Origin: Tsuneonella rigui
Lineage (GTDB): Bacteria > Pseudomonadota > Alphaproteobacteria > Sphingomonadales > Sphingomonadaceae
Length of the DNA: 64,000 nt
Reading direction: 5' to 3'
NCBI RefSeq assembly: GCF_003958625.1
Contig: NZ_RSEL01000020.1
Span: 124,001-188,000, forward strand
Shown here piece by piece: positions 47,650-49,583 of the stretch. Under the pieces are notes generated by a model that was not told the origin of the DNA, did no database searches, and saw only the letters and a program-made list of their open reading frames with translations. A program made the position numbers and the translations under genes. Position 1 is the stretch's first letter; each line of letters opens with the position of its first letter.

Positions 47650-48319
47650 GCTGTCAGGAACACCTCATCCAGAGTTCGGCTCCACCCCGCTCATCGTCGG
47701 GGTGGACGAGGCCGGGCGCGGCCCGCTCGCAGGGCCGGTTGTCGCCGCCGCGGTCGCGCTATGCAAGCCGCGACCGGCAGGGCTCGACGATTCGAAGAAG
47801 CTGACCCGCGAGGAGCGTGAGCACCTCGAAGAGCGCATCCGCCGGCGCTGCGCGTTCGGGATCGGCGTGATCGAAGTCGAGACGATCGACGAGATCAACA
47901 TCTTCCACGCCACGATGCTGGCGATGACGCTGGCTGTCACCCGGCTGTGCGAAGTGGTGGGCTGCGATCCGCTGCAGATCCTCGTCGACGGCAACCTTAC
48001 GCCCGCCAAGCGCCAGCCCGCCTGGCGCTGGCCTGCGCGGGCGATCGTCGGCGGCGACGAGAGCGAGCCGTGCATCTCGGCCGCGTCGATTATCGCCAAG
48101 ACGCACCGCGACCGAATCATGCGTGAGCACGCGCTCGCGCACCCGCACTACGGGTGGGACACCAACGTCGGTTATTCGACCCCGACCCACCTTAGGGCGC
48201 TGCGCGAGCACGGACCGTGCCCGCTTCATCGCAAGAGCTTCGCGCCGGTGCGAATTGCCGCCGGTTTGAGTCTTTCCGGCAACACCCCTCCAGATTTCGA
48301 GCTACAGGAAGTCGCCTAG
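47648..48319 (+). CDS. rnhB: Ribonuclease HII
   Basis: Cuts RNA in DNA-RNA hybrids, including single misplaced ribonucleotides. The 223-residue protein has LIVGVDEAGRGPLAGPVVAAAV with the catalytic DE, LDDSKKLTREERE, IIAKTHRDRIM and the C-terminal HYGWDTNVGYSTPTHLRAL. ATG 47648 is chosen since it leads directly into the family start; upstream codons overlap the sugar dehydrogenase. The ccrM regulatory region starts right after its TAG. Confidence 0.95.
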   Translation: MLSGTPHPEFGSTPLIVGVDEAGRGPLAGPVVAAAVALCKPRPAGLDDSKKLTREEREHLEERIRRRCAFGIGVIEVETIDEINIFHATMLAMTLAVTRLCEVVGCDPLQILVDGNLTPAKRQPAWRWPARAIVGGDESEPCISAASIIAKTHRDRIMREHALAHPHYGWDTNVGYSTPTHLRALREHGPCPLHRKSFAPVRIAAGLSLSGNTPPDFELQEVA

Positions 48320-48323
48320 ACTC
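48319..48323. promoter_or_regulatory. GANTC methylation site 1 upstream of ccrM
   Basis: GACTC overlapping the rnhB stop codon; target of CcrM-type adenine methylation. It lies 33 bp upstream of the TTAACCAT motif. Confidence 0.6.
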
Positions 48324-48355
48324 AACATCTTGTGGCGGACACCTTTCGTTCTGTC

Positions 48356-48363
48356 TTAACCAT
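48356..48363 (+). promoter_or_regulatory. CtrA-type half site TTAACCAT before ccrM
   Basis: TTAACCAT is a well-known CtrA binding variant in alphaproteobacteria. It lies 96 bp upstream of the ccrM start, a usual place for an activator of this gene. Binding is not shown here. Confidence 0.55.
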
Positions 48364-48405
48364 TTCAGCGAATTTTACGTCGCTCCCAACTCCCCGCTTG
48401 ACGGC

Positions 48406-48442
48406 GAGTCCGCTTGGACTCACCCTGTGGATAACTTGAATC
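48406..48442. promoter_or_regulatory. Cluster of three GANTC sites and a perfect DnaA box before ccrM
   Basis: GAGTC at 48406-48410, GACTC at 48417-48421 and GAATC at 48438-48442, the substrates of the enzyme encoded downstream. Between the last two is TGTGGATAA at 48426-48434, the complement of the consensus DnaA box TTATCCACA. In Caulobacter, GANTC sites in the ccrM leader report replication passage; the arrangement here suggests similar feedback, with DnaA as an added input. Confidence 0.7.
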
Positions 48443-48458
48443 AGGGGGAAGTGACGGG

Positions 48459-49583
48459 ATGGGGGTCATCGAGACCACGCGGGTGCGTGTGCGCGCCGCA
48501 CAGGAGGCGGTCGAACTGCCGGTGGGACGCATCCTGGCGGGCGACTGCGTCGAGGCGATGAAGCGGCTGCCGACCGCGAGCGTCGACCTTGTCTTCGCCG
48601 ATCCGCCCTACAACCTGCAACTGGGCGGCGATCTCAACCGGCCCGACGGCAGTCATGTCGATGCGGTAACCGATGCATGGGACCGGTTCGACAGCTTCAA
48701 GAGCTACGACGATTTCACCCGCGCGTGGCTGACCGAGGCCAAGCGCGTGCTCAAGCCCGACGGCGCGCTGTGGGTGATCGGCAGCTACCACAACATCTAC
48801 CGCGTTGGCGCGATCCTGCAGGACCTTGGGTTCTGGCTGCTCAACGACATCGTCTGGCGCAAGACCAACCCGATGCCGAACTTCCGCGGCACCCGCTTCA
48901 CCAACGCGCACGAGACGCTCTTGTGGGCGAGCACGGGAGAAAAGGCGCGCTATCACTTCAATTATCGCGCGATGAAAACTCTCAATGACGAGTTGCAGAT
49001 GCGCAGCGACTGGGTGATCCCGATCTGCGGCGGGCAGGAACGGCTCAAGGAAGACGGCCACAAGGCGCACCCGACGCAGAAGCCCGAAGCGCTGCTCTAC
49101 CGCGTGCTGCTGGCAACGACCGAGAAGGGCGACGTCGTGCTCGACCCGTTCTTCGGCACCGGCACCACCGGCGCGGTCGCCAAGCGGCTCGGCCGAGAAT
49201 GGATCGGCTGCGAGCGCGAGCCGGCTTACCGCGAGGTCGCGACGAAACGGATCGAGAAGGAACTCCCGCTCGACGAAAGCGCGCTGGCGACCATGGCCAG
49301 CCCGCGCACCCAGCCCAAGGTCGCGTTCGGGTCGGTGGTCGAGGCGGGGCTGTTGCCGCCGGGGACGCAAGTGTTCGACAAGAAGCGGCGCTGGACTGCC
49401 ACTGTGCGGGCCGACGGTTCGCTACTGTGCGGCACTTTGAGCGGGTCGATCCACGGCCTCGGCAAGGACCTGCAAGGCGCGCCGAGCTGCAACGGGTGGG
49501 CGTTCTGGCACTACCTCGAGGGCGATGCGGTCAAGCCGATCGACGCAGTCCGGCAGACGTACTTGCTGAGCGTCGAAGACTAG
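48459..49583 (+). CDS. ccrM: Cell-cycle-regulated DNA adenine methyltransferase (GANTC)
   Basis: Methylates adenine in GANTC. The 374-residue protein has motif IV DPPY in [18 protein letters not shown], the target-recognition part between, and motif [23 protein letters not shown] toward the C terminus, giving beta-class order. The C-terminal RAMA domain (about 285-370: [39 protein letters not shown]), required for activity in CcrM, is complete. ATG 48459 has AGGGGGAAG upstream. No restriction enzyme is near, so it is a solitary regulatory methylase. Confidence 0.96.

Follow-up and report, generated by a model that had tools for sequence, protein, structure and literature searches.

Does the replication initiator DnaA act directly on ccrM, the gene of the cell-cycle adenine DNA methyltransferase, in Tsuneonella rigui and its relatives? 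The question is raised by the short region between rnhB and ccrM, in which an initial annotation had named a CtrA motif, four GANTC sites and a perfect DnaA box, and from which it had proposed that DnaA would gate the methylase in sphingomonads. The region belongs to a stretch of 64 kb (G000:C20:124001-188000, hereafter the window) of the 2.86-Mb T. rigui genome, and all the motifs named were found in their places by direct reading.

The ccrM control region

The features of the locus, with per-base identities among 84 relatives where these are given, are the following:

47648-48319, plus strand: rnhB (ribonuclease HII; Pfam RNase_HII, 9.4e-39), upstream neighbour of ccrM, with its TAG stop at 48317-48319
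48319-48323, plus strand: conserved GANTC site (GACTC), read directly, whose G is the final base of the rnhB stop
48319-48351, plus strand: conserved block GACTCAACATCTTGTGGCGGACACCTTTCGTTC of 33 bp, opening with that GANTC; mean identity about 0.85, single bases 0.21-0.99 (84 relatives)
48356-48363, plus strand: CtrA-type motif TTAACCAT, read directly
48398-48403, plus strand: predicted -35 element TTGACG; identity of TTGAC 1.00 (84 relatives)
48406-48410, plus strand: GANTC 1 (GAGTC), CcrM site in the -35/-10 spacer; fixed bases 0.83-0.93, N 0.45 (84 relatives)
48417-48421, plus strand: GANTC 2 (GACTC), CcrM site whose last C opens the predicted -10
48421-48426, plus strand: predicted -10 element CACCCT (CANNNT class) after a 17-bp spacer; the CANNNT pattern is found in upstream regions of other orders
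48426-48434, minus strand: perfect DnaA box TTATCCACA, read as TGTGGATAA on the plus strand; spans approximately -7 to +2 relative to the predicted start
48438-48442, plus strand: fourth GANTC (GAATC); 0.11-0.33 per base (84 relatives), in some close relatives only
48459-49583, plus strand: ccrM, 374 aa, with its ATG at 48459; N6_N4_Mtase and RAMA domains

The position of the box relative to transcription follows from taking the start site seven bases beyond the -10. GANTC 1 is also part of one arm of an inverted repeat (GAGTCC-GCTT-GGACTC, 48406-48421), and only 4 bp separate GANTC 2 from the DnaA box. Profile searches assigned to the protein an N6_N4_Mtase domain (PF01555, 1.8e-65) and a C-terminal RAMA domain (PF18755, 8.5e-21), and its top family was NF050803, the NCBIfam equivalog of the Caulobacter-type CcrM, with 599 bits, under the cut-off of 830.

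The upstream regions of ccrM were gathered from 250 loci: 80 named loci, which are the best CcrM matches (three Tsuneonella first, mostly Erythrobacteraceae), 30 loci from a family search that included the T. rigui genome, 100 more stretches of the family and 40 class-wide ones. Removal of exact duplicates of the last 110 bases left 240 distinct sequences, grouped by locus number as near (L009-L118, n=101), mid (L119-L171, n=53), far family (L172-L218, n=46) and other orders (L227-L266, n=40). The family loci represent 130 of at least 198 family genomes with a ccrM match, used in score order and with G135, G124, G122 and G123 left out, and the class-wide loci 40 of at least 236, selected by score and better assembly. 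The alignment mentioned above comprises those 84 of the 101 near upstreams in which the anchor coincided with a start codon and the sequence extended far enough upstream, and was not anchored on the DnaA box.

The density of GANTC sites in this region is unusual: 80 GANTC occur in the window where shuffles give about 300, a strong avoidance, and at this density four of them in 124 bp would have a Poisson P of about 2e-5. Three GANTC within 33 bp occur nowhere else in the 64 kb, and a single other spot (60140-60240) has four within 120 bp. The latter foursome lies around the 5' end of a gene whose product has HD and HD_assoc (phosphohydrolase-associated) domains. Within the ccrM cluster, both spacer GANTC sites are kept in 89 of the 101 near upstreams, and the fourth was found at the same place in L009 and L090-L092. 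Conservation in close relatives, which had been put forward as the test of the whole arrangement, holds for the DnaA box and for both GANTC sites of the core, and fails for the fourth.

The CtrA motif does not belong to the fixed layout of which it was thought to be a part. The exact TTAACCAT is present in 41/101 near and 20/53 mid upstreams, its position at 48356-48363 is not kept in the alignment of the 84 near upstreams, and genome-wide it shows no clear enrichment (25 copies versus 20 for the reversed control). The loss of CtrA in Sphingomonas melonis, a member of the same order, is described, in the excerpted text of PMC8116508, as having no negative effect on growth and viability. The motif trio is more aptly described as a promoter with paired GANTC sites and a DnaA box, to which CtrA is an optional addition.

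Two elements, the invariant TTGAC and the conserved 33-bp block at 48319-48351, were missing from the initial annotation. Other readings of the upstream DNA were tried. An upstream string, CACAAGATGTTGAG, resembles the NrdR consensus, and a string upstream of the ribonucleotide reductase gene, CACAAGACCTAG, has CACAAGA in common with it; a candidate NrdR box at ccrM is nevertheless unsupported, with 0 of 6 half-site strings near that reductase gene, the sole PF02867 gene found. The pattern tried for this reading, CACAAGATNTTGNG, has one exact copy in the genome, at ccrM, and 4 one-mismatch copies versus 10 in the reversed control. A weak DnaA box (TTGTGG) in the upstream block was also set aside, its last G being only 0.48 conserved. 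As a separate observation, the DNA before the ribonucleotide reductase gene (L299) reads GAGTC-N6-GATTCACTAT, by eye like the paired GANTC and CANNNT of ccrM and without a TTGAC at the same spacing.

Conservation of the DnaA box and of the promoter core

The feature is genuine, and it is both ccrM-specific and strongly conserved. The exact 9-mer of the box, TGTGGATAA, is present in 78 of the 80 named loci (all save L057 and L088), and it is the best 9-mer of the alignment, with a mean identity of 0.997 in the 84 near upstreams against an intergenic mean of 0.61. Among distinct upstreams and on either strand, the box occurs in 97/101 near, 42/53 mid, 6/46 far-family and 2/40 other-order sequences, where the near-relative counts are not independent events because of shared ancestry; dinucleotide shuffles of the same upstreams gave 0.04-0.05 box-bearing sequences per group. 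A box lying 24-50 bases after a TTGAC was found in 97 near, 41 mid, 2 far-family and 0 other-order upstreams. Those without a box are L057, L088, L113 and L116 in the near group, L113 having been scored as a miss owing to mis-anchoring even though its genome, G103, has the composite described below, and L127, L129, L132, L138, L143, L152-L155, L163 and L169 in the mid group. The proposal of DnaA gating in sphingomonads is thus well motivated by conservation, as far as sequence comparison goes, and too wide in its scope, because the box is present in only 6 of the 46 far-family upstreams and at the same place in just 2 of them.

Within the window, TTATCCACA has a single exact copy, and with one mismatch allowed there are 2 against 2.27 expected. 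As this second count matches expectation, a lone 9-mer would be weak evidence, and the case rests on conservation. The composite TTGAC-N14-GANTC-N2-14-TGTGGATAA was found in 36 of 119 family genomes, with one match each and 0 in the reversed control, and by eye 35 of the 36 lie within about 130 bp of the start of the ccrM match, that of G103 being 332 bp off. The box starts most commonly 28 bases after the TTGAC (61 near and 30 mid sequences), with other spacings of 29, 30, 31 and 36 in the near and mid groups and of 32 and 33 in two far ones. Such a varying distance fits a separate binding site, as expected. Neither of two other roles considered for TGTGGATAA agrees with this variation: as a -10 element, its spacing from TTGAC would range from 28 to 36, and no acceptable hexamer or extended -10 was seen by eye; as part of a leader peptide, the single-base shifts in spacing would break the reading frame.

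In more distant members of the family the box takes other places. An extended form, CTGTGGATAACT, is found in L186, L187 and L196 about 150 bp upstream of the ccrM anchor and about 92 bp before the core, and two far-family members of one genus carry a perfect box directly after the core. This distribution suggests that a DnaA box was joined to ccrM more than once.

The core itself is far more widespread than the box. A TTGAC followed by a GANTC at +18 to +20 is present in 96/101 near, 45/53 mid, 40/46 far-family and 22/40 other-order upstreams, and includes a second spacer GANTC in 89, 39, 20 and 20 of them, respectively; in the T. rigui genome, CTTGAC-N14-GANTCA occurs once, at ccrM. In other orders, CANNNT stands at the -10 place, with a 17-bp spacer, in 19/19 of the upstreams with GANTC 2 at +19. 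Within the family, A2 of this hexamer is nearly always kept and T6 is found in 65% of 96 near, 84% of 45 mid and 46% of 39 far sequences. T6 is lost in relatives with box spacings of 29 or 31 (CATGCC, CACAAG), which makes the start site and the regulatory sign less sure in them. The -10 assignment seems therefore good in other orders and weaker in the family of T. rigui, and a sigma-70 promoter scan of the region returned no site at its threshold. In the commonest layout, that of 28 bases, the first T of the box is the last base of the CANNNT.

We read the core as an old methylation-type sigma-70 promoter of alphaproteobacteria, and the sharing of TTGAC and GANTC across orders points to an old self-regulating ccrM promoter in this class. 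The factor that drives methylated promoters in Caulobacter is GcrA, according to passages of PMC7403470. GcrA (PF07750) scored above the cut-off in 21/21 genomes, in a search that also matched one archaeal control, Sulfolobus; the match of T. rigui covers the N-terminal part only, as contig C17 ends there.

A further line of evidence comes from the perfect boxes found elsewhere. The T. rigui genome has 7 exact boxes versus 2 in its reversed control, a count inflated by a repeated gene, transposase-like by the appearance of its 291-aa frame, whose copies on contigs C16, C17, C18 and C29 harbour 4 of the 7 in the form TGTGGATAAC. The remaining three are the box at ccrM and two others:

G000:C13:158928-158936 (L219 1501-1509): perfect DnaA box between ftsA and ftsZ, identified by Pfam FtsA and FtsZ
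G000:C28:283182-283190 (L224 1501-1509): third perfect DnaA box, intergenic, with the string TTGTGGACAAG nearby

The intergenic box at C28:283182 was considered as a candidate oriC; it lies next to the genes of a 2OG-Fe(II) oxygenase and a nucleoside transporter, and dnaA and hemE were both located in the genome. A site resembling it appears in G047 (L279).

Twelve complete relatives, in which not every box was read (the third of G184, for example, was left out), have 3 to 9 perfect boxes each, with no genome-wide enrichment against the reversed control: the number falls below it in 11 of the 12, and G088 has 9 versus 8. The box stands at ccrM in 12/12, as expected from genomes picked for carrying it, and within 80 bp after ftsA in 9/12, where the box loci were profiled for FtsA only, FtsZ being confirmed in the T. 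rigui genome alone. Since ftsZ is, in the excerpted text of PMC3193534, one of four well-characterized DnaA-activated promoters of Caulobacter, the 9-mer between ftsA and ftsZ supports DnaA as the reader of the box. A box kept at ccrM, often before ftsZ and rare otherwise is the strongest argument for this protein.

A model for DnaA at the ccrM promoter

The binding of DnaA to the box at 48426-48434 appears likely from these comparisons. Points against the model below are that the box is single, with no cluster around it, that it is missing from 11/53 mid upstreams and not enriched genome-wide in relatives, and that the -10 is weak. If DnaA does bind there, repression is the fairly likely sign, because a protein lying over -7 to +2 should exclude RNA polymerase. 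The most likely pathway would start from a core in which TTGAC is followed by a CcrM site within the spacer and by another whose last base begins a weak -10 (CANNNT), a promoter that GcrA would presumably use according to the full or half methylation of the two GANTC sites. In this clade, a perfect DnaA box sits over the downstream end of the predicted -10 and over the predicted start site. DnaA would bind across approximately -7 to +2, most likely in competition with RNA polymerase, and ccrM would stay silent around initiation for as long as DnaA is plentiful or active. Release would come when DnaA falls and the passing fork leaves the promoter half-methylated, the state of the GANTC pair then setting promoter competence. 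The whole of this reading, in which DnaA competes with RNA polymerase on a methylation-type promoter and holds ccrM off around initiation, is given slightly better than even chances.

The main rival to repression is activation of ccrM by box-bound DnaA, the role that DnaA plays at ftsZ, gcrA, mipZ and hdaA in Caulobacter, with the result that ccrM would follow initiation. Excerpts of PMC8203912 and PMC3193534 describe DnaA-activated cell-cycle promoters in that organism and DnaA as an activator, not a repressor, of its targets; the perfect box after ftsA in 9 of the 12 relatives and the box upstream of the core, not on it, in L186, L187 and L196 would also agree with activation. However, the box of T. 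rigui overlaps the predicted -10 and start site, whereas the positions given for Caulobacter in passages of PMC4287350 are -82 for podJ and -52 and -83 for mipZ, and activation is considered an unlikely outcome, with a small yet appreciable share of the probability.

A slightly less probable explanation is that the reader of the 9-mer is not DnaA but either RNA polymerase, for which it would be a downstream promoter element, or another factor of the same preference. The 9-mer does reach into the -10 and the start region, and its invariance equals that of the -35. Against this, 40/46 far-family and 22/40 other-order upstreams of ccrM have the same core and for the most part no box, the distance between box and core shifts by up to 8 bases, and the motif is the exact DnaA 9-mer, met again between ftsA and ftsZ.

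Still more doubtful is a mainly non-transcriptional DnaA site, which would shield the adjacent GANTC from methylation or hold DnaA at the locus. The 4 bp between GANTC 2 and the box would favour shielding, but a single box is not a titration cluster, and among the literature matches listed, which were available in part, no precedent for DnaA covering a GANTC was found. Lastly, chance could be invoked since 11 of 12 relatives have fewer perfect boxes elsewhere than the reversed control, but it is already contradicted by 97/101 and 42/53 box-bearing upstreams against about 0.05 expected and by the top-conserved 9-mer of the region, and its probability is negligible.

Competition between DnaA and RNA polymerase can be extended by analogy with SeqA at the oriC of E. 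coli. In such a case, DnaA next to GANTC 2 would both block RNA polymerase and delay the remethylation of the promoter, a speculative possibility to which little weight is given. If it were true, the ccrM promoter would work as a miniature timer, sensing both the activity of the initiator and the passage of the fork at a single place, and would determine how long the whole chromosome stays hemimethylated.

In Caulobacter, initiation is tied to ccrM via several steps, involving DnaA, GcrA and CtrA. If the box acts on the ccrM start site, this chain would be short-circuited in one clade, where a direct coupling of DNA methylation to replication may exist, and the question of how replication sets the timing of methylation would become testable by a single site mutation.

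Relation to known systems

A link between DnaA and ccrM in some alphaproteobacteria had been predicted before. A DnaA-matrix scan of promoters published in 2010 (PMC2877005) proposed, in its excerpted text, a possible DnaA control of ccrM, mainly where ccrM lacks CtrA sites, with the reservations that the matrix has low specificity and the link no taxonomic conservation. The regulator, the target and the derivation from a motif scan are the same as here; the difference is that the excerpts of that study give no fixed box, position or layout, and do not single out Sphingomonadales for the link. Among the matches listed, with subscription literature mostly outside them, no title or abstract opening speaks of a DnaA box at the promoter of ccrM in this clade. 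In its general form, DnaA to ccrM, the connection had already been predicted, and the fixed box within a methylation-type promoter appears to be a new variation on it.

With respect to DnaA-regulated promoters, such as dnaA and nrdAB of E. coli or ftsZ, gcrA, mipZ and hdaA of Caulobacter (parts of PMC8203912 and PMC3193534), the region has in common the exact TTATCCACA in a cell-cycle promoter, and the likeness to ftsZ extends to an ftsA-ftsZ box kept in many of the same genomes. The target is here, unlike in those cases, a DNA methylase, and the word ccrM is absent from the text of PMC8203912 and PMC3193534.

The ccrM promoter of Caulobacter has two GANTC sites and is under CtrA control (passages of PMC10073500), and an effect of GANTC methylation on ccrM has been termed most probable (PMC3973325, in part). 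Compared by description with PMC10073500, the two loci share ccrM itself, the paired GANTC and a CtrA-type motif in the window. The Caulobacter descriptions, in the excerpts of PMC10073500 and PMC3973325, mention no DnaA box, whereas in the clade of T. rigui the CtrA motif is variable and the DnaA box near-invariant.

Finally, the GcrA-CcrM sigma-70 promoters of Caulobacter, for example ctrA P1 (portions of PMC7403470, PMC8116508 and PMC4287350), likewise have a GANTC in or at the edge of the -35/-10 region, an encoded GcrA and a cell-cycle gene under their control. In contrast to them, as far as these portions describe them, T. rigui carries its two GANTC, spaced by roughly one helical turn, at the gene of the methylase itself, and its predicted start site is in addition overlaid by a perfect DnaA box.
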